The notes below the pieces were generated by a model that worked only from the letters and a program-made list of their open reading frames with translations, was not told where the DNA came from and made no database searches. The translations under genes were made by a program, and so were the position numbers. Shown here piece after piece: positions 9,110-21,431 of a stretch of 43,235 bases of DNA (its first letter is position 1; every line of letters begins with the position of its first letter). The DNA comes from a virus, in the IMG/VR virus record IMGVR_UViG_3300027782_000147, positions 1 through 43,235 of that record, one strand, 5' to 3'.

Positions 9110-9487
9110 TTAGTTTTTTCTTAGTCCAGTTCTCCAAGCGTGTTGAAGGTTTTCACTAGGTGTACACGCTTCAAGGTTAGAAACCGCATTGTTGTGCTTA
9201 TTGCCGTCAATGTGGTTAATTTGTAGGTTAGAGTTGGAATGTTCGTTCCAGTATATAAGTCCAAAAGTAATTGCAACAAGTTTATGTGCGTTTACATTAA
9301 ACCTAAACTTATTGTTGTGCAACTTAAACTGAAGATAGCCACTGTTGATGATAGTAGGCTTAACAAGCCGCTCAGGAAGCCTTCTGCCGTCACTTGTGGT
9401 CTTTGGGCAAGCCCTGAGCCGTCCAAGGCTTGAAATCTCGTACAAGCCCTTAAATTGCTCGATTGGTACTGGCTTCCATTCTTCCAT
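9110..9487 (-). CDS. HNH homing endonuclease with NUMOD4 domain
   Basis: This 125-aa protein has an N-terminal NUMOD4 DNA-recognition motif (WKPVPIEQFKGLYEISSLGRLR, residues 4-25) and an HNH nuclease core. H68 lies in NAHKLVAITF, the second motif is INHIDGNKHNN at 90-100 with N104, and SENLQHAWRTG ends the domain. Such free-standing enzymes cut DNA site-specifically and spread themselves among phages. It sits between tRNA-Thr (3' end 4 bases upstream) and the 418-aa gene (stop to start gap of 1 base), an insertion place typical for homing genes. All core HNH residues look intact. Confidence 0.9.
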   Translation of the reverse strand: MEEWKPVPIEQFKGLYEISSLGRLRACPKTTSDGRRLPERLVKPTIINSGYLQFKLHNNKFRFNVNAHKLVAITFGLIYWNEHSNSNLQINHIDGNKHNNAVSNLEACTPSENLQHAWRTGLRKN

Positions 9488-9491
9488 AAAG

Positions 9492-9566
9492 TGGGGCCGC
9501 AGGTCGGACTTGAACCGACAACCTACAGTTTACAAAACTGTTGCACAACCATTGTGCTACTGTGGC
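9492..9566 (-). tRNA. tRNA-Thr (anticodon UGU)
   Basis: The cloverleaf is complete on the minus strand. The acceptor stem is GCCACAG/CTGCGGC with one A-C mismatch at the fourth pair, the D stem is GCAC/GTGC, the anticodon stem ACAGT/ACTGT encloses TTTGTAA (anticodon TGT, reads ACA), the variable loop is AGGTT and the T arm is GTCGG-TTCAAGT-CCGAC. The discriminator base is C and the CCA tail is encoded (9492-9494). Its 5' end overlaps the end of a 39-codon gene by 10 bases. Confidence 0.9.
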
Positions 9567-9676: not shown

Positions 9677-9861
9677 TTACAGGGCTTCTTCTTGCACTCT
9701 TTGCACTCTTTCTTCTTCGATTCGGACTTTTCGTGCTTCATACCTTCGCCTTCAGAACCATCATCGGCTGGCATTTTGGTATACTTAGGAATATCGAGAG
9801 CCTCGTGCATAGCATCGGGCTGTTTAAACTTAGACTTGTTAGGCTTGCTTGGCTTTTTCAT
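9670..9861 (-). CDS. Small basic protein with C-terminal cysteine cluster
   Basis: This 63-aa protein is read from the ATG at 9861 (MKKPSKPNKSKFK), which overlaps the upstream 161-aa gene by 23 bases. It is Lys-rich and ends in KKECKECKKKPCKC, four to five cysteines in CxxC-like spacing that could bind a metal or form disulfides. Function is unknown. The position upstream of the packaging genes and the overlapping starts show that it belongs to the same transcript. Confidence 0.6.
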   Translation of the reverse strand: MKKPSKPNKSKFKQPDAMHEALDIPKYTKMPADDGSEGEGMKHEKSESKKKECKECKKKPCKC

Positions 9862-10324
9862 AGGATTTAAATGCGGGTTTGCGAATGGTGTGGTTGTTAT
9901 TCTTGGTGTCAACTTCAACATACGAGTTCTTTGGAAGGGTTTTGTTGTTACGACAATTGACTAGAACCATAAACCCAGAGTCGTGTTCAACCATAACTGT
10001 GTTGAAGTTCTTGTAGCCATTTCTAACAACACGGCCTACCCACTTAGAGTTGTTTACCAACTTAACAAACTCTTCCTTGGACATAACACGACTTTCTTGC
10101 ATTGGAGGTTGAGTTTCAAGTTCTGTCTTAACTCTGAAGTACTCAGTCAGATACAAAACTCCAACATCCGTCCACCAGATGGTCTGAAGATGCTTAGGTT
10201 TCTTCGATTCTTCACGGAACCAGAGCCGCATACCCTCAAACTCGATGGCATCGTGGCGAACCGCCTTCAAATCGGACTTCAGCCAGCCGTTCTTCTCAAT
10301 CAGTTCGCTTTCTTTGATGTTCAT
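9839..10324 (-). CDS. Hypothetical protein at the head of the late operon
   Basis: This 161-aa protein is the first minus-strand gene below the 10.3-10.7 kb intergenic region. The N-terminal 60 residues are mixed helix and strand with several Trp and Tyr (MRLWFREESKK, IWWTDVGVLYL). The C-terminal half reads as a compact beta domain (WVGRVVRNGYKNFNTVMVEH, FMVLVNCRN). It is Lys/Asn-rich with pI on the basic side. I do not recognise a family; a regulator or DNA-associated protein is possible given its first place in the operon, but this is a guess. Confidence 0.65.
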   Translation of the reverse strand: MNIKESELIEKNGWLKSDLKAVRHDAIEFEGMRLWFREESKKPKHLQTIWWTDVGVLYLTEYFRVKTELETQPPMQESRVMSKEEFVKLVNNSKWVGRVVRNGYKNFNTVMVEHDSGFMVLVNCRNNKTLPKNSYVEVDTKNNNHTIRKPAFKSYEKAKQA

Positions 10325-10374
10325 ACCCCCAGATTACTCAATGAATACCTATGTCAACCCTATTGTATCGATAT

Positions 10375-10397
10375 ACTATTCTATGAGACTATTCTAT
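10375..10397. repeat. Tandem 10-bp direct repeat ACTATTCTAT
   Basis: Two exact copies (10375-10384 and 10388-10397) are separated by GAG, one helical turn plus 3 bases apart. They lie between the C-rich block and the start of the 161-aa gene, so they could be a protein-binding site controlling the late operon. Confidence 0.6.
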
Positions 10398-10400
10398 ATG

Positions 10401-10470
10401 TAGGAAATCCATAGCACCCCCCCCTAGGAAATCTGCTTCACCCCCCTAGGAAATAGATTTCCCCCTACCC
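10401..10470. repeat. Iteron-like C-rich repeat block matching the initiator gene
   Basis: Three copies of TAGGAAAT (starting 10401, 10425 and 10447) are interspersed with runs of 5-8 C. Read on the minus strand, 10470-10424 aligns with plus-strand 19351-19397 over about 47 bases with small gaps, and CCCTAGGAAATCTG at 10422-10435 is an exact inverted copy of 19341-19354. GGAAATAGATTTCC (10449-10462) is itself palindromic. This suggests recognition sites shared by the replication region and this locus. Confidence 0.7.
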
Positions 10471-10675
10471 AAAACACTAAACTAACAGATTCCGCTTGAC
10501 AGACATAACCAACAATCCCCCTAATAACCCCCTTCCTACACAGACTTATATGTCTTTTGCATATATAATGTGTGTGTTGTAATCCGTAGAAGAGGGGTGA
10601 GAAAAAGTGAGGAGAACCCCCGCCCCCCACTTGCGTGAGGAGCAGAGATTCTTTCTCACAATGCCGTGCCTGTAT

Positions 10676-10709
10676 CAACGCATCACTTACTGTCTAAGCA
10701 ACGCATCAC
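10676..10709. repeat. 11-bp direct repeat CAACGCATCAC
   Basis: Exact copies lie at 10676-10686 and 10699-10709, 23 bases apart, near the end of the 90-aa gene. A related CAACGCATC is seen at 9588-9596. They may be a second family of binding sites in the candidate origin region; chance is not excluded. Confidence 0.45.
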
Positions 10710-10738
10710 AATCAGGAGCAATGCCAATGCGATAACGC

Positions 10739-11011
10739 TCACTGACATTTCGCTTGGCGAATTGAACGCTTGGTACGCATCACATCAATCTTGGCGAGGA
10801 GCAGGTGAAGCCGTGCTTCGGTCACCGAGTCCTTAGCGTCATTGATTGCACGATACGCATCGGCCTTAGCCGCCACGAGTTCGTCTCGCATCGTGCGAAG
10901 CATTTTGCGTGCTTTGTAGTGAGCGTGATGAGCGATGCGGATTTGCTCGCATCGTTTTGCGAGCGTGGCCTTGGCTGGAACCGCCTTCACCATCTTGCCG
11001 TTGATGCTCAC
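10739..11011 (-). CDS. Small basic helical protein
   Basis: This 90-aa protein starts with GTG at 11011, overlapping the upstream stop as GTGA. It is almost entirely helical and Ala/Lys/Arg-rich (AKRCEQIRIAHHAHYKARKMLRTMR, AINDAKDSVTEARLHLLLAK), suggesting a DNA-binding or coiled-coil protein. It is second in the short operon from the promoter at 11520-11547. The base composition is clearly G/C-richer than the virion genes. No family is recognised. Confidence 0.6.
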   Translation of the reverse strand: MSINGKMVKAVPAKATLAKRCEQIRIAHHAHYKARKMLRTMRDELVAAKADAYRAINDAKDSVTEARLHLLLAKIDVMRTKRSIRQAKCQ

Positions 11012-11436
11012 TTGGAATCGGCCTTGATGTAAGGCGTGAGGATTGCGGCGGCGGTGACGATGTTGCGAACAGTCTTCATCTCGGCCAATGCGGCCTTGCG
11101 AACCTTGCTCACATTAATCTTCGGAGCCTTCGACTTTTTCTTAGCGGCGATAACGCTGGTCACGCCCTTGATGAGTTTGCCATCGCCTTCGGCCTTCGCC
11201 TGATTGGCGGCGGCCTTGATGGTCTTCAACAATTCGGGCAGAGTCTTGCCGATGTTGAGAACCCAAGCGAAGCACTCTTCGTCAGTGATTACCTTTTCGT
11301 TCAGGAGTCGTTCCTGTCCGACCTTGTGCGTCTTGCCGCCGACGAACTCAGCGAGAGGCGTGAGCGTCTCACCGAATTGTTTTGCAGTGAGCGTGGCCTT
11401 CGTGGCCTTGCTCTTACCGACAGTTTTCTTTTTCAT
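11008..11436 (-). CDS. Lysine/alanine-rich basic protein, first gene after promoter P1
   Basis: This 142-aa protein begins MKKKTVGKSKATKATLTAKQ and is rich in Lys and Ala throughout (IKAAANQAKAEG, VIAAKKKSKAPKIN). The central part has an acidic helix (LLNEKVITDEECFAWVLNIG). The composition resembles histone-like or nucleoid-associated phage proteins, but no specific domain is seen. It is the first gene behind the promoter at 11520-11547, with a leader of about 75 bases, and is followed by the 90-aa gene with a GTGA overlap. Confidence 0.6.
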   Translation of the reverse strand: MKKKTVGKSKATKATLTAKQFGETLTPLAEFVGGKTHKVGQERLLNEKVITDEECFAWVLNIGKTLPELLKTIKAAANQAKAEGDGKLIKGVTSVIAAKKKSKAPKINVSKVRKAALAEMKTVRNIVTAAAILTPYIKADSK

Positions 11437-11519
11437 ACTGGTTGATAACCATCACCGCACTTGTTGTTGGTTCGTGCGGGTACTCGCTCGTGCGTCAGTG
11501 CCGTAGCGGGTACACATTC

Positions 11520-11547
11520 ATTATATCCGAAACTATTTGCCGAGAAA
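11520..11547 (-). promoter_or_regulatory. Promoter P1 (TATAAT, 16-bp spacer, TTTCTC)
   Basis: On the minus strand TTTCTC (11547-11542) is followed after 16 bases by a perfect TATAAT (11525-11520) and then GAATGT. The same arrangement, spacing and flanks (TTCGG before and ATGT after the -10) occur at 17226-17253. It drives the 142-aa and 90-aa genes. The -35 hexamer differs from TTGACA, so a different sigma preference or an activator is possible. Confidence 0.75.
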
Positions 11548-11642
11548 GTGAAAGTGGGCAACAGGGTGTTTGATGTCCTGCTACCCACTGCTTGGTGCTC
11601 AGTAAAACCTGATGGCACGCAAGATTTTTGCCTTAATTGAAA

Positions 11643-11656
11643 CTCACTTGCGTGAG
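11643..11656 (-). terminator. Short hairpin, possible weak terminator
   Basis: CTCAC-TTGC-GTGAG forms a 5-bp stem with T-rich bases on both sides. On the minus strand it lies between the end of the 62-aa gene (11708) and promoter P1, where an upstream transcript would be expected to end. The stem is short. The motif CACTTGCGTGAG recurs at 10629-10640. Confidence 0.35.
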
Positions 11657-11707
11657 ATTTTAATGAGGGCGATTAACCAGAGCGTAACTACCACTACCTC
11701 TACTGCG

Positions 11708-11896
11708 TTAGGCATTCTTCTTATGATAGAGATACCTGCTACGCATATAGATGGACATACAAGGCTTGCAATACGATGACAGGTACTTGGTCACATTGCT
11801 AAGCACATAGAACGATTCGTTCTGCTTAGTCTTGCGACACATAGCACAGCATCTGTATCCAGCCCTATGTCGTGCCTTGCGAGGATAGATGCTCAC
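11708..11896 (-). CDS. Small zinc-ribbon-like protein
   Basis: This 62-aa protein is read from GTG at 11896, overlapping the preceding stop as GTGA. It carries two cysteine pairs, CCAMC near residues 16-20 and YCKPC near 42-46, separated by about 25 residues, plus an Arg/Tyr-rich basic C-terminus (MRSRYLYHKK). The pattern fits a small zinc ribbon, as in phage HNH-like or transcription-linked mini-proteins, but no HNH residues are present. Function is unknown. Confidence 0.6.
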   Translation of the reverse strand: MSIYPRKARHRAGYRCCAMCRKTKQNESFYVLSNVTKYLSSYCKPCMSIYMRSRYLYHKKNA

Positions 11897-12345
11897 GACT
11901 CGGTATTCTTGTGTGTGCTGAATGGCACACGCTTGGACAAACGCTCGATGACCTCTTTGACATCAGAGTCGTAACGCTTGTTCGTGGTATTAATCCAGCA
12001 CTTCTGGAAGTACGAATCCCACTGCGTCCTCGTCTTGTGAGAAACATTGGTGGTAAGTCCCCAATAAGTTACCACATCAGCGAGTGAGTGGCGGTAACCA
12101 TACTGAATACCATCAACAGTTTCCCAGTAGTGAGCGTGATGAGCCATCATATCGAGCAGTGCGATACGCCTCGCACACTCAATAAGTTTGACATCTGTCA
12201 TCTCACCATCGATGTCGTGTTGCAGACCCATCTGATAGAACACAAACGACTGAGCACGAGGCAACCAATGGAGCGAGCCATCGGCTTGCGTGTACTCAAT
12301 CAACTTGCGGTCGATACCTTCAGCGAATTCGAAGTCGAGGCTCAC
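11893..12345 (-). CDS. Hypothetical 150-aa protein
   Basis: Read from GTG at 12345 (GTGA overlap with the upstream stop), the protein is soluble, acidic at the N-terminus and His/Tyr-rich in the centre (DMMAHHAHYWETVDGIQYGYRH). Residues 75-110 read as helix followed by a Trp-containing segment. I do not recognise a family and see no catalytic signature. It is chained to its neighbours on both sides by GTGA overlaps, so it is co-translated in the middle minus-strand block. Confidence 0.6.
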   Translation of the reverse strand: MSLDFEFAEGIDRKLIEYTQADGSLHWLPRAQSFVFYQMGLQHDIDGEMTDVKLIECARRIALLDMMAHHAHYWETVDGIQYGYRHSLADVVTYWGLTTNVSHKTRTQWDSYFQKCWINTTNKRYDSDVKEVIERLSKRVPFSTHKNTES

Positions 12346-12542
12346 GAGTGTGTGTATCCGTCTGCTTCGATGCCGAAGACCATCTTCGCACCAGTGTTAG
12401 GGCCAGTGACAGCAATCAAAATGCATTGCTCTGCGGGGAGTTTGTGAATGGATGAGTAGTCTAATACCCAGCCACAATTCACCAACTTGATGAGTGCTTC
12501 CAACTGCTCGTTAGTGAGCGACACTGCGTTAATCGTAATCAT
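12342..12542 (-). CDS. Hypothetical 66-aa protein
   Basis: This small protein starts with ATG at 12542 and contains an N-terminal helix (LTNEQLEALIKLVNCGWVL) and a beta-like C-terminal half (CILIAVTGPNTGAKMVFGI). No known domain. A hairpin at 12553-12582 lies in its leader, directly behind the DUF932 gene. Confidence 0.5.
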   Translation of the reverse strand: MITINAVSLTNEQLEALIKLVNCGWVLDYSSIHKLPAEQCILIAVTGPNTGAKMVFGIEADGYTHS

Positions 12543-12552
12543 AGTGATAGGA

Positions 12553-12582
12553 GGGACTCACCACCTTGCGATGATGAGTCCC
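12553..12582. other. Hairpin between DUF932 gene and the 66-aa gene
   Basis: GGGACTCA (12553-12560) and TGAGTCCC (12575-12582) form a perfect 8-bp stem with a 14-base loop. No T-run follows on the minus strand, so a plain intrinsic terminator is unlikely. It may act as an attenuator or RNA-processing site shaping expression after the DUF932 gene. Confidence 0.5.
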
Positions 12583-12589
12583 AGCGTTA

Positions 12590-13531
12590 TCAGTTGCTAC
12601 GAACCTCGTCAGGAGAGGCGATGAGGTTTATGAACTCATCGTGACTCGTGGTGGCGTGGTGCAGTGCGTGGAGAACCTGAGACGAAGTGCGGTTCGTCAT
12701 CTCGTACTTCTGCTCGCTGAACTGATGCGTGAGCACCTGCGTGTGAGCGTTGTACAAGTTCCACAAATTACGGGCCTTGTCGGCATCGTAATTAGGAACA
12801 GACCACACATCGTGGACACGCTTGCGAACGGATGCACCAAGGTAACCTCGGTTCACCATATTCTCGATAGCGTTCCAACCCTGCTGTTGCGTGAGCGGGA
12901 TGTTGGCGAGGTTCTGCCAGACAGTGCGAAGCGAAGACCATTCGCTCATCGCTTGGATGACGACATCGTTGACGAACTCATAGTTCACATTGGAGGTGTG
13001 ACGCACAGAGAACATCATATCCTCACGGAAGGATGTCATACCATTCGTGCAGATGAGACGAAGAGCACCGACAGAAATCGAAGAGCGGCTAGTGCCGTCA
13101 AACGAGTTCTTAGCGGTGATTCGCAACGCAACGATATCACCCTTGCGAGTGATGTCTGCCTTCTCAGTGGCGAAGTCGAACTGCATATGAGTGCGAGCAC
13201 CACGGCGAGTCACGATGGACTGGAACGCAGTAGGCGACAGACCATTCTGTTCGAAGCCAGTGCGGATGGTGCGTTCGAACACATCGTTCTGAATGATGCC
13301 GTACTTATCGGAAGTCTTTCCGATGATGACACCATTGTCGCACCGCTGATTGCCCCAGCAATTCGCAGGAACGCCATTAGCCGTATAGAGCGGCACAGAG
13401 CGAACGGAATAGTTGTGGGCGTTGGAACCCGAAGTAACCTTCGGGCTGTTGGCGTGATGCATTTCTACTTCACGCTCGTATTGCTGACGGATTAGAGACA
13501 GGTCAGCGGCTGTCTGGATGCTGTGTAGCAT
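12590..13531 (-). CDS. DUF932-family protein (phage/plasmid-like)
   Basis: This 313-aa protein matches the DUF932 family found on phages and plasmids. The recognisable parts are an N-terminal segment setting up a response fold (DKYGIIQNDVFERTI), then MQFDFATEKADITRKGDIVALRITAKNSFDGT, and the most conserved stretch, ALRLICTNGM near residue 180. The C-terminal 120 residues are helical. The molecular function of the family is not established; it is often near recombination or replication genes. The leader (13532-13632) shows no clear promoter. The start ATG at 13531 follows ACATACT, without Shine-Dalgarno. Confidence 0.85.
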   Translation of the reverse strand: MLHSIQTAADLSLIRQQYEREVEMHHANSPKVTSGSNAHNYSVRSVPLYTANGVPANCWGNQRCDNGVIIGKTSDKYGIIQNDVFERTIRTGFEQNGLSPTAFQSIVTRRGARTHMQFDFATEKADITRKGDIVALRITAKNSFDGTSRSSISVGALRLICTNGMTSFREDMMFSVRHTSNVNYEFVNDVVIQAMSEWSSLRTVWQNLANIPLTQQQGWNAIENMVNRGYLGASVRKRVHDVWSVPNYDADKARNLWNLYNAHTQVLTHQFSEQKYEMTNRTSSQVLHALHHATTSHDEFINLIASPDEVRSN

Positions 13532-13632
13532 AGTATGTGTTTCGTTTTGGTTTATGTGCTACTTGGCGTTGGAACCTGACGCAATTCCTTCGCTTTTCGC
13601 ACAAAGTTTTGGACGGAATAAATTACTCTGGG

Positions 13633-13884
13633 TTAAAGAGTAATGTGGTTAAGGAGAGCGTCTACTTCGTGTTCGCTCTGGCAGTTGGCATTGATGACGC
13701 TCATCACCCTGCTGGATACACCAACATCAACCTTACGCCACGCTCGTGAAGCGGCGGCGATGTCGATGAAGATGTTTCCGCTACCGCTCAGTGATGCAGG
13801 AGGATAATCCTCACGCTGAATGGTTTCTGGAATCTCCAACATTGAGACGAGTTCAGCGAGACGCTTTGCAGATACCTTGGACAT
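13633..13884 (-). CDS. Hypothetical 83-aa protein
   Basis: Read from the ATG at 13884 (MSKVSAKRLAELVSM), one base after the stop of the 266-aa gene upstream. The N-terminus is a short helix, followed by a Pro/Ser/Gly-containing linker and a helical C-terminal half (AAASRAWRKVDVGVSSRVMSV). Nothing identifies a family. Spacing shows it is in the same transcript as the 266-aa acidic protein. Confidence 0.5.
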   Translation of the reverse strand: MSKVSAKRLAELVSMLEIPETIQREDYPPASLSGSGNIFIDIAAASRAWRKVDVGVSSRVMSVINANCQSEHEVDALLNHITL

Positions 13885-13885
13885 A

Positions 13886-14686
13886 TTACTTAGTCTCCTT
13901 GGTCTGTTCGTATGCGGAGGCGAGGAACTCACCGAGCACAATCTTGACGCAGTGACGAGTGTTCTCGTTATACCAATTGTCCCACTGCTCACCGAACTTG
14001 GCTGTCATCTGCTCACGGATGAGTACATCGAGTTTGATTTCGATTTCGTCATCGATGCAGTTGCGAGCGTTGGCGTTTTCAGTCTCACGAGCCTCAGACA
14101 GCGTGGACTTGAAGAGAGACTTGACTTCATCTTTGAGCATCTGCGTGAACCAATCACGCTTCAACTCGCTGATGACTTCATCGCTCAGGTCGCTACGCTT
14201 CATCACATCGTCATCAGACATCTGCTCCGACTGGAGCATCAGGTCATCGATATCGATATCATCGCTGGTGAGCAGACAGTTGTCGCTGACTACATCAGAC
14301 CAATCAATCTTGTCCACGACCTTGTCAGCGACCTTGTCCCAATCGATAGCCTCACGCAGTTCGTAGTCCCAATCTTTATTGCTGATGGCATCATCGAGTG
14401 CATCACTGATGCTGTCGGTGAAGTCGTGATTCTCAATCGCTTCACTTACAAGCGTATCGAAGTCGAACGACTCCTCAGTTGCTTCACGAACGATGGTCTG
14501 GAAGTGCTCATCGTGACTCTTCTTGCTCATACCAGCCAGCGAGATGCTGTCGGTCTTAAGCAAACCTTTGAGGTGATGAACATCCTGTTCCAATCCCATA
14601 ATACGCATCTCTAAGTCGAGAAGCGTGTGCTCTGCCTTGCTCGCTGGTAGGAACCAAGCGAGGAGTTTACCAATCATTTGTTTCAT
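13886..14686 (-). CDS. Large acidic protein with predicted coiled coil
   Basis: This 266-aa protein has an N-terminal hydrophobic helix (MIGKLLAWFLP, residues 4-14), a short coiled coil (LLDLEMRIMGLEQDVHHLKG) and then a long stretch rich in Asp, Glu and Ser with repeated short helices of the form AIENHDFTDSISDALDDAISN. Such highly acidic phage proteins sometimes mimic DNA or bind host nucleic-acid enzymes; this is only a compositional inference. It lies inside the unknown middle block between the DUF932 gene and a zinc-finger-like gene. No enzymatic motif is visible. Confidence 0.6.
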   Translation of the reverse strand: MKQMIGKLLAWFLPASKAEHTLLDLEMRIMGLEQDVHHLKGLLKTDSISLAGMSKKSHDEHFQTIVREATEESFDFDTLVSEAIENHDFTDSISDALDDAISNKDWDYELREAIDWDKVADKVVDKIDWSDVVSDNCLLTSDDIDIDDLMLQSEQMSDDDVMKRSDLSDEVISELKRDWFTQMLKDEVKSLFKSTLSEARETENANARNCIDDEIEIKLDVLIREQMTAKFGEQWDNWYNENTRHCVKIVLGEFLASAYEQTKETK

Positions 14687-14696
14687 ATGCGTTGTG

Positions 14697-14891
14697 TTAT
14701 TTGTTTCGTTTCGTTTCGGTTTGCTCGTTCAGCGTTACTACCCTGTTAGGTTGGGCGGGGTTCACGCTGTCGGAGTTTTTGGTTTCCTCAGTTGCCTGAG
14801 AAAGAAAAGTGGAAAGAAGAACTTCGTGTTCTTCCTCCCACTGAGACAGACGAGATTTATTCGTCTGGGTTGATAGGCTCTTCCGCTTCAT
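14697..14891 (-). CDS. Possible 64-aa acidic/polar protein
   Basis: An ATG at 14891 opens MKRKSLSTQTNKSRLSQWEE and the frame runs to 14697, 10 bases before the next start. It overlaps the end of the better supported 59-aa gene by 35 bases in another frame, and it contains the hairpin at 14816-14834. The composition (Glu, Thr, Asn, Gln) is unremarkable. Coding is uncertain; the alternative is an untranslated spacer. Confidence 0.35.
   Translation of the reverse strand: MKRKSLSTQTNKSRLSQWEEEHEVLLSTFLSQATEETKNSDSVNPAQPNRVVTLNEQTETKRNK
14816..14834 (-). terminator. 7-bp hairpin followed by T-rich bases on the minus strand
   Basis: GAAGAAC-TTCGT-GTTCTTC is a perfect 7-bp stem with a 5-base loop. 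On the minus strand it is followed by TTTCCACTTTTCTTTC, so a weak intrinsic terminator after the 59-aa gene is possible. Confidence 0.4.
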
Positions 14892-15036
14892 ATGCAGTGA
14901 AGATGTCGGGTCGATATAGACGCAACTTTTTCTCCTTACAGTCTTCGCAGACTTTGCAGAGAGGGATTCCGTATCCATCAGTTAGCCAATACCAATGCTT
15001 ATGGCTTTCGCAGGAGCACTGATTAGGATTGCTCAT
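14857..15036 (-). CDS. Small zinc-finger-like phage protein
   Basis: A 59-aa protein read from ATG at 15036, overlapping the stop of the 85-aa gene as ATGA. It has CSCE at residues 7-10 and CKVCEDCK at 27-34, so four or five cysteines are placed for one zinc site. It then has KKLRLYRPDIFTAYEAEEP and ends in PDE. The C-terminal RPDIF-Y-EPI pattern is familiar from small phage zinc proteins of unknown role. The gene is short but the motif makes it convincing. Confidence 0.7.
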   Translation of the reverse strand: MSNPNQCSCESHKHWYWLTDGYGIPLCKVCEDCKEKKLRLYRPDIFTAYEAEEPINPDE

Positions 15037-15290
15037 CGTTTAAGCCCGAAGTTTTTGCCGAGTGCATACTCGGCAGTCCTCACATACTCACCGCCAAGTT
15101 TGTTGGCGATGGTACGGAGTTCTTCGACTCGAAACTTTACATTGCTGTAAATGATATCGAGTTGCTTATCGCTGTGCTCGTTGCGAATAGGATGGTGGTC
15201 ATCGAGCCAAGTTGATTGGTGATTGAGCCACTTATCTTCCGCATCGAGGAACTCGCTTAAAGCACGATGGAATTCAGCATCAGTACTCAC
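15033..15290 (-). CDS. Hypothetical helical 85-aa protein
   Basis: Read from GTG at 15290 (GTGA overlap with the upstream stop). Helical, acidic in the N-terminal half (EFLDAEDKWLNHQSTWLDDHH) and basic at the C-terminus (YALGKNFGLKR). No recognised domain. It is chained by overlaps to the 135-aa gene before it and the 59-aa zinc protein after it. Confidence 0.55.
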   Translation of the reverse strand: MSTDAEFHRALSEFLDAEDKWLNHQSTWLDDHHPIRNEHSDKQLDIIYSNVKFRVEELRTIANKLGGEYVRTAEYALGKNFGLKR

Positions 15291-15694
15291 GAGCGGACTC
15301 CTTTCTTGATTGCATCAGAGAGAGCAGACCTAACGAATTCATTAACAGACATAGAGTTGCTCTTCGCAAACTCTCTGCACTGTGTGTAGAATTCAAAGTC
15401 TTTCTCAATCCAAGGGCTACCGCACCACATCACTTGTATGTGCGTAGGTCTTCCAAGCGATGTGGAGTGTGCTCGAAGTGCTCTCTGATAATTATGCAGT
15501 TTTGCTCGATTAGCATTTCTGTAATCGGCAGTATACTTAACCCTGCGAGAGAGTCGTTCCTGCATAATCAGTTTGCACTTATCGCACTCACACTTGCTAA
15601 CTCGGTGAACGATATCGCCATCAGTCCAATATCGCTTAGTGGGGTTAGCAACAACCGCTTCGTATGCCTGAGGGAACAACCTTTCGTGTTTCAC
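15287..15694 (-). CDS. Hypothetical protein with CxCxxC cluster and ribbon-helix-helix-like C-terminus
   Basis: This 135-aa protein starts with GTG at 15694, overlapping the gp88-type gene stop. Near residues 34-40 it has CECDKCK, a possible metal site, followed by a basic Tyr/Arg/Asn-rich helix (KYTADYRNANRAKLHNYQRALRA). The last 30 residues (SMSVNEFVRSALSDAIKK) read like the helix pair of a ribbon-helix-helix DNA-binding domain. A regulator is therefore plausible, at modest confidence. Confidence 0.5.
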   Translation of the reverse strand: MKHERLFPQAYEAVVANPTKRYWTDGDIVHRVSKCECDKCKLIMQERLSRRVKYTADYRNANRAKLHNYQRALRAHSTSLGRPTHIQVMWCGSPWIEKDFEFYTQCREFAKSNSMSVNEFVRSALSDAIKKGVRS

Positions 15695-16470
15695 GACACG
15701 GCTCCTTTCTGGATGAACGAATTGCTTCGTCCTTCTTTTCCAGCGGCTTTGCCTTTCGCACGGAGTCCGATGATGCGACCATACTTGTTCGGGTCTTTCT
15801 GGTCGAGGAAACGCAGGTCGTGCGTATCTCCATCAACAACAGTGTATCCCCAATGATGGTCGGGCAGTTTATCGCCACGCTTCACATCGAACACGACAGC
15901 AACATTGACTCCGTTATCGAGACACCAGATTGCGTTCTTAGCATCACCGCCACCATACGAATAGGTGAGATGATAGTTGAGAGGCAGTCTGCCCATCGTC
16001 CAATCGACAATGCGTTGGAAGTCCTTACTGTAGTCGTAGAATTGCACATCAGGATGACGATACATAATCGTTTCCATATCTGAGTTCCAGATATCTGATG
16101 TGCCGTTGATACGAACGCACGGCTTCAACTTACGCTTCAATCGCTTCGTGTTGCGATAGCAGAGGTTCTCGTGATTAAGAATCTCTCGGTCAACCTTCGC
16201 CCAGAAAGTATCTGGGTACATATGCATCCACTTCGTCTTGTGAACACGAGCCGCATTAATCTTCGGAAAGATTCCTGCGAGGCCAGCGAACACGAGACAG
16301 TCTTCACGACATTCTTTCGTGGCGTGTTTGCACACATTAACAACACCCGACATATCGGATGATGCGAGGTATAGGATAGCAGTGCTGTATCCAAGATGAT
16401 TGCCCTTCTTCGTCTTTGCGTTGTCGAAGTTGAACAATTGTTTGGTCTTCTTCCAATCTGTGTTGTCCAT
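15691..16470 (-). CDS. gp88-family phage protein (Gp88 domain)
   Basis: This 259-aa protein, read from the ATG at 16470 (MDNTDWKKTKQLFNFDNAKT), follows the conserved layout of the gp88 domain known from actinobacteriophages and other phages. It has a segment with TAILYLASSDMSGVVNVCKHATKECREDC (three conserved cysteines C47, C54, C58), then NGTSDIWN near residue 124, then FYDYSK, NYHLTYS, NVAVVFDV, TVVDGDTHDLRFLD and GLRAKG. All blocks are present in order, so the protein looks intact. The biochemical function of the family is not established; the cysteines suggest a metal centre. It lies 33 bases below a strong terminator. Confidence 0.85.
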   Translation of the reverse strand: MDNTDWKKTKQLFNFDNAKTKKGNHLGYSTAILYLASSDMSGVVNVCKHATKECREDCLVFAGLAGIFPKINAARVHKTKWMHMYPDTFWAKVDREILNHENLCYRNTKRLKRKLKPCVRINGTSDIWNSDMETIMYRHPDVQFYDYSKDFQRIVDWTMGRLPLNYHLTYSYGGGDAKNAIWCLDNGVNVAVVFDVKRGDKLPDHHWGYTVVDGDTHDLRFLDQKDPNKYGRIIGLRAKGKAAGKEGRSNSFIQKGAVS

Positions 16471-16502
16471 ATATGGTATGTGTTTGGGAGGAAATAAAAG
16501 CA

Positions 16503-16534
16503 GAGAGGAGAAGCGATTGCTCGCCTCTCCTCTC
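16503..16534 (-). terminator. Strong intrinsic terminator in the middle block
   Basis: A 14-bp stem (9 bp, one A-C mismatch, 4 bp; arms GAGAGGAGA and TCTCCTCTC) with a TTGC loop is followed on the minus strand by TGCTTTTATTTCC. It lies between the 174-aa gene (stop 16559) and the gp88-type gene (start 16470), so it should end or attenuate transcripts from promoter P2. Confidence 0.75.
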
Positions 16535-16558
16535 CACAGTCGGTGGTGCTGGTTCGTG

Positions 16559-17083
16559 TTAAGCGTCCAGAGCGATGTTCTCTTCGCCACCCTTCGTCTC
16601 GTTATACTTCTTGATGGCGGCTTCGTATGCAGACAAGCGAGCCTTGGCATCAGCGATGTCCTGCTCCTGAGCGACCATATTCTTCCAGTAGCGTTCGCCA
16701 TTTTCGAAGGAAGCGTAGACCTCCTTGGTGTTTTCAGCGATGACCGCTTCGGCATCCTTGCCGATGCCGTTCTCGTTGGCGAACATCCGTGCGGTGAAAC
16801 CTTTCAGCCCAGTGCTGAGGATTTCGAAGCCGAGCAACTGCACGAACTTGTATGCAGTGATGGAGTGGCGATAGCACCAGCCGCTCTCATCTTTTTCGGT
16901 GATGTAGATGAACGGCTGACCGCCAGACCGCAGGATAGCGTGGAACGCTTTGAGGAACTTGCCTTCGCCTTCGTACTTGTCTTCGCCCATAATCGGAGCG
17001 GAGTAGTGGAAGGGGTGGAAGGTGAACACTTCCACGCACTGAATCTTCGCCATCAGAACCATCAGGTTAGTTGAGGTTTCCAT
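16559..17083 (-). CDS. Hypothetical 174-aa protein, first gene after promoter P2
   Basis: Read from the ATG at 17083 (METSTNLMVLMAKIQCVEVF). The N-terminal part predicts mixed beta-alpha (FTFHPFHYSAPI, LRSGGQPFIYITEKDES), the middle a helix (AYKFVQLLGFEIL) and the C-terminal 50 residues a charged coiled coil (VAQEQDIADAKARLSAYEAAI). The composition is G/C-rich and the protein is acidic at its end. A roughly 140-base leader with a hairpin (17166-17184) separates it from promoter P2, and a strong terminator follows. This arrangement suggests a single-gene, highly expressed early unit. No family is recognised. Confidence 0.65.
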   Translation of the reverse strand: METSTNLMVLMAKIQCVEVFTFHPFHYSAPIMGEDKYEGEGKFLKAFHAILRSGGQPFIYITEKDESGWCYRHSITAYKFVQLLGFEILSTGLKGFTARMFANENGIGKDAEAVIAENTKEVYASFENGERYWKNMVAQEQDIADAKARLSAYEAAIKKYNETKGGEENIALDA

Positions 17084-17165
17084 ATCGTATATCGCTTTCG
17101 ATTTAGTCTGCACCTTCCACTCACTCGTTTTATTTTGGGTTAACGAATGGAGCAGATGTTTCGGT

Positions 17166-17184
17166 GAGTGCCGTAGTGGCACTC
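17166..17184 (-). promoter_or_regulatory. Leader hairpin between promoter P2 and the 174-aa gene
   Basis: GAGTGCC-GTAGT-GGCACTC is a perfect 7-bp stem with a 5-base loop in the 5' leader of the P2 transcript. The bases AGTGCCGTAG occur again in the P1 leader (11497-11506) but without the pairing arm. It could stabilise the mRNA or control its translation. Confidence 0.5.
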
Positions 17185-17225
17185 GATACCCGAATCAGTG
17201 TGACCGCCTCTACTTGCTTACATCC

Positions 17226-17253
17226 ATTATACCCGAAGACCTGTGGCGAGAAA
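17226..17253 (-). promoter_or_regulatory. Promoter P2 (TATAAT, 16-bp spacer, TTTCTC)
   Basis: TTTCTC (17253-17248), a 16-base spacer and TATAAT (17231-17226) lie on the minus strand, in the same arrangement as at 11520-11547. Shared bases include TTTCTCG, TTCGG just before the -10 and ATG-ATGT just after it. It fires into the 174-aa gene. Confidence 0.75.
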
Positions 17254-17363
17254 TGAAAATCGTGGAGCCACGAGCCAATCCGACCTCAAACCTTCCTCCT
17301 GTTACCCTGTTAAGACCTAACCTTATAAGATTTTTGCTAAAATTGTTTTGGGACAAAATTGCC

Positions 17364-17819
17364 TTACTTTGAATCTGGAATGTCAATAATCTCGCCTGAA
17401 ATCATTTTATTAATATCTTCGTGCTTGATTCTAAGGCGATGCTCAGTAACTACTACAGGCTGGTCATTGAGGGTCTGTACTTTGTCGATGAGAATCGCTA
17501 GTGCCAATGGCATCTGGCTGATAGGCAGTTTATCAATCTCAGTATCAAGCCTGAGAGCACCCTTCATAATGATAGACTTAAACAGGTCAGAAGTCTTGGC
17601 CTTGTAAGTCTTCAGGTCTAGGGACTCCTGACTGCCCATATCTTGGCGTACAGCGACCACAGTATGACTAGAAACCTCAACTTTCTCCTCGATTTCCTTC
17701 TGAGTATGGCCCTGTTCGGTCATCCACACAATTTCTTCCTTCTTTTTAGCGTCAAGTTTTTCAAGAGTTGTTGATTTCTTATCATTCTTGACTCTTTCAT
17801 ATTTGGATTCAGATTCCAT
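17364..17819 (-). CDS. HTH protein, candidate small terminase subunit or regulator
   Basis: This 151-aa protein is read from the ATG at 17819. A basic N-terminus is followed by a helix-turn-helix (about residues 23-52: KKKEEIVWMTEQGHTQKEIEEKVEVS then HTVVAVRQD), then a helical domain with ALRLDTEIDKLPISQMPLALAILIDKVQTL and a beta-like tail (VVVTEHRLRIKHEDI) ending IIDIPDSK. HTH plus helical oligomerisation plus beta tail fits small terminase subunits, and no other candidate was seen. It lies far from terL and next to the divergent replication operon, so a transcription regulator is also possible. Confidence 0.55.
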   Translation of the reverse strand: MESESKYERVKNDKKSTTLEKLDAKKKEEIVWMTEQGHTQKEIEEKVEVSSHTVVAVRQDMGSQESLDLKTYKAKTSDLFKSIIMKGALRLDTEIDKLPISQMPLALAILIDKVQTLNDQPVVVTEHRLRIKHEDINKMISGEIIDIPDSK

Positions 17820-17835
17820 ACAAAACAACGCTATT

Positions 17836-18282
17836 ATGAATTTGCCTACAAGTCAATGTTGGTTAGTTATGCCCATCGAGCCGCCCAAGAGCACCCATCA
17901 GGCTAATTTGAGGGTTCTTAGGTCTAAAAGCGGCAAAATGTTTGTCGGAAAAATGAAAAACAACAAAGTATCCGCTTGGGTAGACCTTGCTAGGCCGTAT
18001 ATGGTGGCTGGGAAGCCCGATAAGCCCTGCGAAGGGCCAATCAGGGTCTACATTAGGCTTTACTATAGCCCCCCAAAGTACCTTTTACCAAAAATTAGCA
18101 AGTGTAAAACACTTGTAAAAACCACCAAACCAGATGTGGACAATGTTGTCAAGGTCATTCTGGATGAATTTACCAAAATCGGATACTGGCTTGACGATGC
18201 CCAAATCTGGAGCATACAGATTGAGAAGTACTGGAGCACGGAGCCATCTGTGCAAATGTACTACGACCAAAACAACCAATGA
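17836..18282 (+). CDS. rusA: RusA-like Holliday junction resolvase
   Basis: This 148-aa protein resolves four-way DNA junctions during replication and packaging. The catalytic acidic motif KPDVDNVVKVILDEF puts D100 and D102 in place, and YWLDDAQIWSIQIEKYW gives D120/D121, the RusA signature. The length fits. The start is ATG at 17836 (MNLPTSQCW); an upstream non-ATG start would run into the divergent HTH gene. It is the first gene of the plus-strand operon, only 16 bases from the divergent HTH start, so its promoter must lie inside that gene. Confidence 0.88.
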   Translation: MNLPTSQCWLVMPIEPPKSTHQANLRVLRSKSGKMFVGKMKNNKVSAWVDLARPYMVAGKPDKPCEGPIRVYIRLYYSPPKYLLPKISKCKTLVKTTKPDVDNVVKVILDEFTKIGYWLDDAQIWSIQIEKYWSTEPSVQMYYDQNNQ

Positions 18283-19061
18283 AAACAACGCTAGTCAGCA
18301 CTATGTCGGAGAGCGAATACCGCTCTCTTCCCGCCCTGAATGCTTCCCGCTTCAAGGCGTTCTTCCGCTCACCCTATCACTTCCGTAACCAGAAGGAGGT
18401 TGAGACAACCGAGGCTATGAGGATTGGCACTGCCATCCACACGGCTATGCTCCAGCCTGAGGATTACCTCAAGACTATTGCCTACTTCCCTGATGTGGAC
18501 GGACGCACCAAGGAGGGTAAGGCCATCAAGCAAGCCTTTGAGGAGGGTGCTATCGGCAAGACCATCCTGAAGGCTGACTCTGAGGCAGTAGTGCTTCGGG
18601 CCATCAAGGCTATCAATCAGAACTCTGACTGGCAGAGGATGGCGGCTCAGGTTTCTATCCGTAAAGAGTTAGTCCTGCTTGGCAAGTTGGCTGGCATCGA
18701 CTGTAAGGCTCGCCTCGATATCATTGATGTCGAAAACGGAATCATCAGGGACATCAAATCGTGTGACGATGTATCTGGAACTAAGTTTAAGTACACAGTG
18801 AAAGACAGGATGTACTGGGTACAGGCCGCTTTCTACTGTCTGCTGGCTGAAGAATGCTATGGCAAGCCGTTCAGTTTTGAGTTTATCGCTGTTGAAACCT
18901 CTGAGCCTAGCACTTGTGCTTTCTGGCAGGTTTCTCCTGAAGAACTGGTTAAGTGGAAGAATGCCGTTCTTTTGCGTCTGTTTGACTATGTGGATTGCAA
19001 TCATTCCGACTTCTGGGAAGGCCCACAGGGTGGAATTCTTGAAGACTTAAACATCGTATGA
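18279..19061 (+). CDS. RecE-like PD-(D/E)XK exonuclease
   Basis: This 260-aa protein is the nuclease partner of a phage recombination pair. It belongs to the RecE/exonuclease VIII-like family: GTAIHTAML with H54, ARLDIID with D147, IIRDIKS with D158 and K160, and YWVQAAFYC with Q182 are all in order and spacing. It degrades one DNA strand to expose tails for the ERF annealing protein encoded 1.6 kb downstream. It starts with ATG at 18279 (ATGA overlap with rusA) and overlaps the initiator gene the same way. Confidence 0.88.
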   Translation: MKTTLVSTMSESEYRSLPALNASRFKAFFRSPYHFRNQKEVETTEAMRIGTAIHTAMLQPEDYLKTIAYFPDVDGRTKEGKAIKQAFEEGAIGKTILKADSEAVVLRAIKAINQNSDWQRMAAQVSIRKELVLLGKLAGIDCKARLDIIDVENGIIRDIKSCDDVSGTKFKYTVKDRMYWVQAAFYCLLAEECYGKPFSFEFIAVETSEPSTCAFWQVSPEELVKWKNAVLLRLFDYVDCNHSDFWEGPQGGILEDLNIV

Positions 19062-19687
19062 GTAAGCCATCATTTACTGGTGTCTGGATTCCTGTAGAGG
19101 TCTTCCAGATGGAAACCCTTACCATCACCGAGAAGGTGGTGTACGGAATCGTAAACGCCCTCGACAATGAAGAAGGCTGTTTCGCCTCCAATGGCTACCT
19201 TGCACAGACCCTGCAACTGAGCGACAGACAGGTCAAGAATGTCCTCAAAACGCTTATCGACTACCAGTTGGTAGTCCGCATCGAAGTGAACGGCAAACGC
19301 ATCCTACGGACAGTGGAGAAGCAAGCCTTGGTGGGTGCTACAGATTTCCTAGGGAGGGGGAAACCTATTTCCCGCAGGGGGGGAAGTAGACTTCCTACAG
19401 ATAGAACAGTAGATAAAAAAGAGGATAAACCTACCCTAACCCTTCCTTACGGAGACGCATTCAAAGTGTCTTGGCACAAATGGAAAGATTATCGAAAGCA
19501 AATCAAGAAGCCTTTGTCTGAGATGACGCAACAAGAGCAGTTGACAATGCTTGGCTCTTGGGCAAACGAAACAAACGCAATTGATTCAATCAACAAAAGC
19601 ATTGCTTTCGGCTGGCAGGGTCTTTTTGTAGTAACTGCCAACAAAACCAAAACGCTAACCAACAACGACCACGCCAATGGCTTCTAA
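19058..19687 (+). CDS. Winged-helix replication initiator (replisome organiser type)
   Basis: This 209-aa protein has an N-terminal helix-turn-helix (about residues 20-75: LTITEKVVYGIVNALDNEEG, then NGYLAQTLQLSDRQVKNVLKTLI), a Gly/Arg-rich linker (near residues 95-125) and a helical C-terminal part (WHKWKDYRKQIKKPLSEMTQ). This organisation and the position directly before a DnaC-like loader fit phage initiators such as lambda O or the DnaD-type organisers of Firmicutes phages, which bind repeats inside their own gene. The linker is encoded by a G-rich repeat stretch (19341-19400), which is the likely origin. The start is the ATGA overlap at 19058. Confidence 0.8.
   Translation: MSKPSFTGVWIPVEVFQMETLTITEKVVYGIVNALDNEEGCFASNGYLAQTLQLSDRQVKNVLKTLIDYQLVVRIEVNGKRILRTVEKQALVGATDFLGRGKPISRRGGSRLPTDRTVDKKEDKPTLTLPYGDAFKVSWHKWKDYRKQIKKPLSEMTQQEQLTMLGSWANETNAIDSINKSIAFGWQGLFVVTANKTKTLTNNDHANGF
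19341..19400 (+). repeat. G-rich initiator-gene repeat block, candidate origin
   Basis: Within the initiator gene, TTTCC units alternate with runs of 5-7 G; CAGATTTCCTAGGG at 19341-19354 is an exact inverted copy of 10422-10435. The following 47 bases match the intergenic block at 10424-10470 (inverted) with only small gaps. Repeats inside an initiator gene are a classic place for a phage origin. Confidence 0.7.
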
Positions 19688-20363
19688 GTGCATTCACTGT
19701 AAGGCTGACGCAGTCCCTGTCTGGGACTCAACAAGTCAAAAGTTTAAACCGTTTATCGCAGTGTGCCTTGACTGCTTCCCTCACAAGGAACATCACGAGT
19801 ATCCGTACTACTACAAGGATGTCTTCAACAAGCACAACTGGTGCTTCAAGTCGATGCATCCTTCCACTCCTCTGGCGTTCCACGATACCATCGAAAGCAA
19901 ACTTGCACAGCAGATGCAGGTGGCGTTGCAGGAGTACACACCAGAGCAGAGCGTCCTGCTTCACGGTGTCACTGGCACAGGCAAGACACGGTGTGCGTGG
20001 GCGATGTACAACAAGGCGTGGCTACACTTCTACCCGAAGCATAGCATCTTCCTGACGATGCGTAAACTGGAGTCTGAAATCGAGAAGGGCTTTGCCAACC
20101 AGAACCACGGTGATGTCATCGAGCGTCTGACTTCTTGCTCCCTGCTGGTCATTGACGATTTAGGAAAAGAACGCTTGACCCAACGAATGGAGAGCGATTT
20201 ATTCTCTATCATTGACGAGCGAACATCCAATAAACGCCCGACCATTATCACAACCAACTACAACGGAAGCGGACTATCCGACAGATTCTCAAACGGAGAG
20301 ACAGGCTCTGCAATCATTCGCAGACTTAAGGACTACTTCCGAATCTACGGAGCCGCTCAGTAA
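19677..20363 (+). CDS. DnaC-like helicase loader (AAA+ ATPase)
   Basis: This 228-aa protein would load the host replicative helicase onto the origin, working with the initiator encoded just before it (overlap of 11 bases). N-terminal cysteines C5, C8, C30 and C33 suggest a zinc ribbon, unusual enough to be a partner-binding tag. Walker A is GVTGTGKT at 97-104, Walker B is LLVIDD at 156-161, sensor 1 is TTN at 192-194 and the arginine finger pair lies in IIRRL near 215-216. The length is close to E. coli DnaC. No phage helicase or primase was found, consistent with host replisome recruitment. Confidence 0.88.
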   Translation: MASKCIHCKADAVPVWDSTSQKFKPFIAVCLDCFPHKEHHEYPYYYKDVFNKHNWCFKSMHPSTPLAFHDTIESKLAQQMQVALQEYTPEQSVLLHGVTGTGKTRCAWAMYNKAWLHFYPKHSIFLTMRKLESEIEKGFANQNHGDVIERLTSCSLLVIDDLGKERLTQRMESDLFSIIDERTSNKRPTIITTNYNGSGLSDRFSNGETGSAIIRRLKDYFRIYGAAQ

Positions 20364-20379
20364 TTTCCCACCCAAACAT

Positions 20380-20595
20380 ATGGAAACCCAAAATACCGAA
20401 ACGGCCTCTATCATTGAGGTCAATAACGCACGGAAGTACATCGTACTCCCAGATGGTCGAATGGCACGATTGCTGAAGCCTGTAAAGGTTAAGCACTACC
20501 TGTACTATTCGTTCATCAACGACCAAGGCAATGCTGTTCGAATCAATGCATCCAATAGCCGAAAGGTTAACGATGAAGTGGTTAGCAAGAAGTAA
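20380..20595 (+). CDS. Hypothetical 71-aa protein between loader and ERF genes
   Basis: Read from ATG at 20380 (METQNTETASIIEVNNARKY). The sequence predicts a small beta-rich fold (KYIVLPDGRMARLLKPVKVKH then YYSFINDQGNAVRI) and a basic end. No family is recognised. It lies 16 bases after the loader stop and 22 bases before the ERF start, so it is part of the replication transcript. Confidence 0.6.
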   Translation: METQNTETASIIEVNNARKYIVLPDGRMARLLKPVKVKHYLYYSFINDQGNAVRINASNSRKVNDEVVSKK

Positions 20596-20617
20596 CGAAC
20601 TCTGGAAACGAATCGAT

Positions 20618-21343
20618 ATGCAAAACGATACGCTACCTAAGCCAAACCTGTCTGAGTTGTACATCGCCCTAGGCAATGTGCATTCTGAGACGAAAGACAT
20701 TGTTGCGGATGATTTTAATCCGCATTTTAAATCGAAATTCGCCAGCCTATCGGCTCACTTGTCTTATCTTAAGCCCCTGTTCCACAAGCACGGTCTTACG
20801 GTGATTCAACTGCCGACCTCCGAGTTCCACGACAATGGCATTGGCATTAAGACCATTATTGCCCACAAGAACGGCACGAGCATCGAATCCTCCTGCATCG
20901 TTCCTGTAGGTGAACAGGCTACTGGTCAACAGGCTGGTGCTATCCTGACCTACCTGAGACGCTATTGTCTGGCTTCCATCGGGGGTCTGGCTACCACGGA
21001 TGATGACTGTGAAGCAGACCGAGTGGTTAAGACTTCCTCCGCTCCTGTGGCTGTAAAGAAGTCGGCTCCTATTGCTACCTTTGTTGCACCCCACACTGGT
21101 AGCGTTGGAATCGATTTCGAACTCGCTGTTCCGTTCGGCAAGAACAAGGGTACTTCTCTGTCTGCCCTTCCTGATAGCGACCTCGACTACTGGGCTAACA
21201 AGTGGGAGCCTAAGCCGTGGGAAAAGACTGGTAAGGTCGGTGCTAAAGACCAGTCCCTCAAGAAATCTGCACAGGCTCTCTGGGCTTTGAAGCAGAATGG
21301 TGTAGACTCTGAACCCGAATCCCAAGACGAAGTTCCGTTCTAA
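20618..21343 (+). CDS. erf: ERF-family single-strand annealing protein with extra C-terminal domain
   Basis: This 241-aa protein (start ATG 20618; an ATG at 20573 overlapping the previous gene is an alternative) anneals complementary single strands made by the RecE-like nuclease. The ERF signature is GAILTYLRRYCLASIGGL with DDD following, residues 107-130. After a Pro/Ala linker (about 135-165), residues 168-225 (AVPFGKNKGTSLSALPDSDLDYWANKW) resemble a DUF3820-type domain. The protein ends in ESQDEVPF, an acidic tip like that of SSB proteins, suggesting it recruits the same partners. ERF core is confident, the two additions less so. Confidence 0.85.
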   Translation: MQNDTLPKPNLSELYIALGNVHSETKDIVADDFNPHFKSKFASLSAHLSYLKPLFHKHGLTVIQLPTSEFHDNGIGIKTIIAHKNGTSIESSCIVPVGEQATGQQAGAILTYLRRYCLASIGGLATTDDDCEADRVVKTSSAPVAVKKSAPIATFVAPHTGSVGIDFELAVPFGKNKGTSLSALPDSDLDYWANKWEPKPWEKTGKVGAKDQSLKKSAQALWALKQNGVDSEPESQDEVPF

Positions 21344-21350
21344 CCAATCT

Positions 21351-21422
21351 GTCCCTGTAGTTCAATGGATAGAACATTCGCCTTCTAAGCGAATTATCTA
21401 GGTTCGATTCCTAGCAGGGACA
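21351..21422 (+). tRNA. tRNA-Arg (anticodon UCU)
   Basis: All arms pair. The acceptor stem is GTCCCTG/CAGGGAC, the D stem GTTC/GAAC, the anticodon stem TTCGC/GCGAA with loop CTTCTAA (anticodon TCT, reads AGA), and the T stem CTAGG/CCTAG with TTCGATT. The 3' CCA is not encoded. It sits between erf and the lysozyme-like gene in the plus operon. Confidence 0.93.
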
Positions 21423-21431
21423 TTTTACCAA

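Follow-up and report, generated by a model that had tools for sequence, protein, structure and literature searches.

Two origin-like modules in opposite orientation, one within a lambda-O-like initiator gene and one at the head of the late operon, in a clade of uncultured phages

The Bacillus phage SPP1 carries two origins, one in gene 38 and the other in an intergenic region at a distance of about 12-13 kb; each consists of direct repeats and an AT-rich element, and gp38 binds both (PMC6316719, PMC3485210). The second SPP1 origin is thought to stall forks and to trigger the switch to concatemer synthesis, with an exonuclease, an annealing protein and a resolvase (PMC6316719, PMC3485210). In the Rep proteins of pSK41-type RepA_N staphylococcal plasmids and of pPR9, the segment encoded by the origin is the linker (PMC5703833). 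Here we describe a phage locus that shares features with each of these systems.

The window, i.e., the whole stretch of DNA that was analyzed, has 43,235 bases and comes from an uncultured phage. By its large terminase, the closest isolate is Phage C75C1 (30% identity), and a host search against bacterial genomes gave two weak Clostridia matches only. The minus strand carries head and packaging genes (portal, terminase, SU10-type capsid) plus a 3511-aa protein, which takes up about one quarter of the genome (26528-37063, minus strand) and has no Pfam or PHROG match. The plus strand carries a replication-recombination operon, in the order RusA resolvase, exonuclease VIII-like nuclease, O-like initiator, DnaC-like loader and Erf-like annealing protein. 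Among known RNA elements, the window has two tRNAs only, and none is found at the second module described below. The relevant genes are the following:

9110-9487, minus strand: HNH endonuclease (PHROG 59, E 7.7e-34), encoded between the first late gene and the terminase
9492-9566, minus strand: tRNA Thr(TGT), in the late operon
9839-10324, minus strand: first gene of the late operon, 161 aa, no PHROG or Pfam family match; syntenic marker for the intergenic site in relatives
17788-18282, plus strand: RusA-like Holliday junction resolvase (PHROG 140, E 2.3e-26)
18279-19061, plus strand: exonuclease VIII-like nuclease (PHROG 412, E 9.1e-45)
19058-19687, plus strand: lambda-O-like replication initiator gene, 209 aa (PHROG 678 'replication initiation O-like', E 3.6e-15; Pfam HTH_36, E 1.1e-7; AlphaFold2 model)
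19677-20363, plus strand: DnaC-like helicase loader, adjoining the initiator (PHROG 50, E 8.8e-29; Pfam IstB_IS21, 2.5e-12)
20531-21343, plus strand: Erf-like single-strand annealing protein (PHROG 2324, E 3.3e-27)
21350-21423, plus strand: tRNA Arg(TCT), in the early operon

The original prediction, which was made from the window alone, described a winged-helix initiator whose gene contains a repeat block, translated as a Gly/Arg-rich linker, with an inverted copy in an intergenic region. The protein is indeed a winged-helix, O-like initiator according to PHROG, Pfam and the AlphaFold2 model, which places an N-terminal winged helix at about residues 13-97, a disordered linker at 94-124 and a helical C-terminal domain at 133-183. 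The origin module in the gene encodes about residues 92-124, most of which are disordered in the model, and the reading of the array as a translatable Gly/Arg-rich linker is likewise upheld. A Foldseek search with this model gave weak matches to the N-terminal domains of plasmid initiators (5kbj, 4pt7, 4pql); the best match is a Rep-DNA complex (E 3.5e-3), with a weak structural score.

The predicted 14-mer, CAGATTTCCTAGGG, is present exactly at 19341-19354 (plus strand) and 10422-10435 (minus strand), and no inverted repeat in the window ranks above this same pair of modules (34 nt, 82% ungapped), which lie about 8.9 kb apart in opposite orientation. The repeat pair is real; however, its proposed extent of about 47 bases was too short, since the gapped match of the two modules covers about 67-70 bp (local score 54, compared to a mean of 25.8 and a maximum of 36 in 200 Markov-resampled, dinucleotide-based windows). 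The location was also right, with slightly shifted coordinates: the arrays occupy 19336-19395 (plus strand) and 10462-10403 (minus strand). A profile trained on relatives, from which the window and its near-copies L001 and L002 were left out, detected exactly two modules in the window and no third (19339-19434, plus strand, E 9.8e-25; 10459-10359, minus strand, E 2e-19). Beyond the arrays, the homology of the pair runs on into AT-rich sequence, which flanks both arrays on the same side. The intergenic copy, which had been proposed as a binding block for the initiator, can thus be read as such a block and as more than that, namely, a whole module of iterons plus an unwinding element. The components of the in-gene module are:

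19336-19395, plus strand: iteron array of three units with 23-bp spacing, with dyad covariation
19336-19349, plus strand: dyad 1, left half degenerate
19359-19372, plus strand: dyad 2, GGAAACCTATTTCC
19382-19395, plus strand: dyad 3, GGAAGTAGACTTCC
19396-19434, plus strand: AT-rich element of 12-mer repeats (in relatives, ATAGAAAAGAAG/ATAAAAAAGAGG/ATAAAGATACAG)

The dyads have the form GGAA(N4-6)TTCC, with G-tracts between them. Their right half-sites, at 19345, 19368 and 19391, are 23 bp apart and therefore fall into three different reading frames; thus, the three iteron copies are not explained by a repeated peptide. In 70 in-gene arrays (45 of them distinct) the architecture is constant, whereas the half-sites vary (TTCC, TGCGG/CCGCA, GGCAA/TTGCC, AGCCG/CGGCT, GTGAA/TTCAC), and in the unit adjoining the AT element, changes on both sides are seen in each of the six dyad pairs. 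The dyad covariation score is 0.427, compared to 0.188 +/- 0.026 for shuffled controls (0/500 reach the observed value) and to at most 0.184 for slid controls; covariation scores are inflated by relatedness, which the slid controls preserve. Among 13 distinct window-type genes, synonymous differences amount to 8% for the iterons and to 11% for the AT element, versus 26% before and 34% after the module, i.e., synonymous change over the module is down 3-4 fold compared to the rest of the initiator gene. The synonymous deficit, the covariation and the frame layout all bear out the suggestion that a DNA function constrains this protein-coding sequence, and the in-gene copy shows clearly how the evolution of a DNA site can write a protein linker; here the dyads drift symmetrically and stay translatable.

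The 12-mers of the AT element are clearest in relatives (ATAGAAAAGAAG and ATAAAAAAGAGG in the gene). In the window this element is among the top 1-2% least stable 50-bp segments; among eight relatives, six have it within the top 0.5% of instability, and the remaining two have it at 2% and 6%. In at least one spacer of the in-gene arrays of L099, L130-L133, L136 and L146 the G-tract is replaced by a C-tract, so that the tract can flip strand. A G-quadruplex was considered as a common feature and rejected, because the change of the spacer tract from G to C in L130-L133, L099 and L146 means that strand-specific G-runs are not required.

The second module lies in the intergenic region before the late operon, on the minus strand:

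10403-10462, minus strand: second iteron array, inverted; dyads 10462-10449, 10440-10427 and 10416-10403, with spacing of 22 and 24 bp
10359-10402, minus strand: second AT-rich, unwinding-type element with ATAGAATAG... repeats, on the same side of the array as in the gene, with conserved columns
10352-10357, minus strand: TTGACA, the -35-like box of the late operon; it immediately follows the unwinding element and is kept by every aligned relative
10609-10652, minus strand: terminator-like stem-loop between the upstream leftward genes and the second module, best stem 18 pairs

Intergenic dyads 2 and 3 are less perfect than the best in-gene dyads, and the spacing of 22/24 differs from the 23 bp found in the gene. 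Within the AT element of this module, the window segment 10359-10408 (50 bp) belongs to the least stable 0.05% of the window, and in eight relatives the element is within the top 0.01-0.35%; the 12-mers in the intergenic copy of one relative are ATAGAATAGTGG and ATAGAAAAGAGG. An alignment of 11 genomes shows conservation of iterons, AT element and TTGACA, whereas sequence farther upstream is not conserved. Four overlapping terminator-like sites were found upstream of the module, versus 0.4 expected. No -10 box reaching the consensus threshold was found for the TTGACA, and a DNA search of isolated phages with the intergenic module gave no match.

Viral contigs are partial; therefore, absence of the second module was scored only where the syntenic late gene is present, and the tree counts refer to rows with contigs that reach the site. 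Both modules are found in every member of the window's clade whose contig covers both places, i.e., in 11 loci and the window (L001, L002, L005/L006, L009, L015, L018, L020, L022, L128/L129 and L134), and partial copies stand at the contig ends of L011, L132 and L133. In the initiator tree all 12 covered two-module rows fall into one supported clade (99/99), and none of the 11 rows that lack the second module falls inside it. Place and orientation are conserved across relatives with initiators down to about 51% identical to that of the window. In the sister lineages L024/25, L082, L083, L085, L087, L095, L098, L100, L101, L136 and L139 no second array was found beside the homologous late gene, which is preceded by tRNA genes (one to ten) and, in most, by TTGACA; their in-gene origin is kept, with half-sites changed on both sides together. 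The second module was either gained once, or lost outside the clade (the tree is midpoint-rooted), and its absence from the sister lineages indicates that it is not essential to this type of replication.

The first late gene (161 aa) is itself conserved and present in both the window clade and the sister lineages; in L159-L166, L042 and L044, one to ten tRNA genes lie directly upstream of it, at the site that the second origin module occupies in the window clade. It should be noted that the 88,287-base record IMGVR_UViG_3300010970_000150 (L002 and L087) contains two related but different phage genomes, one with its initiator, of the window type, near 28 kb and the other with a TGTA-type initiator near 72 kb; the assembly is likely to be chimeric or joined.

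In window-type genomes both arrays are of the TTCC type, and in the L020/L022/L128-L134 group both have CAC-ended half-sites (TTGCAC, TTCAC, TTACAC). These shared half-site types, although they represent few independent changes, agree with one protein reading both arrays, and the original proposal of one initiator for both sites appears plausible on this comparative basis.

We consider it probable (about 0.74) that the phage has two origin modules served by one O-like initiator, i.e., a lambda-O-type origin within the gene and a second origin resembling oriR of SPP1. The origin-like anatomy of both modules is well supported by the sequence comparisons; initiator binding, melting, firing order, fork stalling and a theta-to-sigma switch are inferred. 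The in-gene module would be the primary origin, at which initiator dimers would bind the three 23-bp dyad iterons; on the model of lambda and SPP1, the AT-rich 12-mers next to them would be melted by the bound initiator, after which the DnaC-like loader would bring the host helicase. The inverted second module might fire later and send a fork leftward along the late operon; alternatively, it might act as an initiator-bound barrier that stalls theta forks and leads to recombination-dependent concatemer replication, which would use the exonuclease, annealing protein and RusA resolvase that the phage encodes. The AT elements point apart, along the early operon in the in-gene module and along the late operon in the intergenic module; should forks depart from the AT side, replication from each origin would be co-directional with its own operon. 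Cumulative GC skew, suggested earlier as an origin map, follows gene direction with no switch at either module; it maps no origin, was dropped and lends the two origins no independent support.

A fuller version of the two-origin model is tentative, and we hold it to be a possibility rather than the expected outcome. According to it, the clade gained a second complete origin, or was the only one to retain it, with the early terminator on one side and the late promoter on the other; the origins point apart, each along its own operon, so that late forks would run with late transcription, and initiator melting directly upstream of the -35 box would tie late replication to late transcription. The clade with a second origin and its sisters without one, compared at a single syntenic site, amount to a natural experiment on the contribution of a second origin, including its effects on the theta-to-sigma switch, late timing and the packaging substrate.

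The main rival, which we consider unlikely, is that the intergenic copy is mainly an operator: bound initiator would activate or repress the late promoter and couple the initiator level to the late genes, and the AT element would be a promoter-proximal melting sequence. The module does end directly at the conserved TTGACA before the first late gene, after a terminator; however, the sister lineages keep this gene, and mostly the TTGACA too, with no array at all, and an operator would not need the 12-mer AT element, which is present in the coding copy as well. Given the same observation on the sisters, the earlier suggestion of control over late transcription is not supported in the form that the intergenic copy would be needed for it. 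Such control is possible, but the data can be explained with no appeal to it; proximity to the -35 box would allow a combined origin/operator role.

Two other readings are less likely than the operator. In iteron plasmids, a second locus with initiator sites can reduce the amount of free initiator, and the intergenic copy could similarly be a titration or incompatibility site that soaks up initiator or handcuffs the in-gene origin, limiting initiation. This is improbable: the inverted layout would allow looping over 8.9 kb, but the conserved unwinding element beside the iterons would be left unexplained. Slightly less probable still is a packaging or end-processing site (pac/cos-like) before the packaging genes, whose likeness to an origin would come from its being marked by the initiator or a related protein. 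The copy does stand upstream of the operon with the HNH endonuclease, large terminase and portal genes; against this, it matches the initiator's own in-gene array, AT element included, not all relatives whose operon begins in the same way have it, and neither a cos-type end nor a terminase site was seen. A chance resemblance between G-rich sequences, or a neutral duplication of recent date, can be dismissed, even though G-tracts inflate matches and a single genome would have left room for chance, because the score of 54 exceeds the maximum of 36 in 200 resampled controls and place and orientation are conserved across relatives.

Returning to the two-origin reading, the locus can be set beside described systems. 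Satellite phage P4 has initiator-binding repeats at two separated places (ori and crr), as is proposed for the window, whereas its alpha protein is a primase-helicase and, unlike the window's initiator, is not known to be O-like. The pSK41-type and pPR9 hybrid Rep proteins are similar in having a winged-helix or HTH_36 (PF13730) N-terminal domain, with Rep boxes central in the rep gene; however, these are plasmids, no second origin is described for them in that work (PMC5703833), and the structural score is weak. The in-gene module resembles lambda ori within gene O: a winged-helix, O-like initiator is encoded by a gene with several dyad iterons and an AT-rich unwinding tract in its middle, and the helicase loader gene adjoins it. 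Lambda differs in having four iterons of 18 bp and, used as a negative control, gave no second module (score 25, within the shuffled range).

The plan as a whole is closest to SPP1 oriL/oriR and gp38 (G38P), which we compared by published descriptions. In the collection searched, which lacked SPP1 itself, no SPP1 relative was found by sequence, and there was no SPP1 match among phages with the window's initiator. In both phages one origin lies in the initiator gene and a distant second module of repeats plus AT element is intergenic, in or at the late region; the genome size is similar, and loader, exonuclease, annealing protein and resolvase are phage-encoded. Unlike SPP1, the window has inverted copies about 8.9 kb apart (versus 12-13 kb), an initiator that matches lambda-O-type families, iterons that are 23-bp dyads with drifting half-sites, and a second copy at the head of the late operon. 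SPP1 is the well-studied phage with a distant second copy of its in-gene origin and, as far as could be found, the clade described here is an undescribed lineage with an SPP1-like plan.
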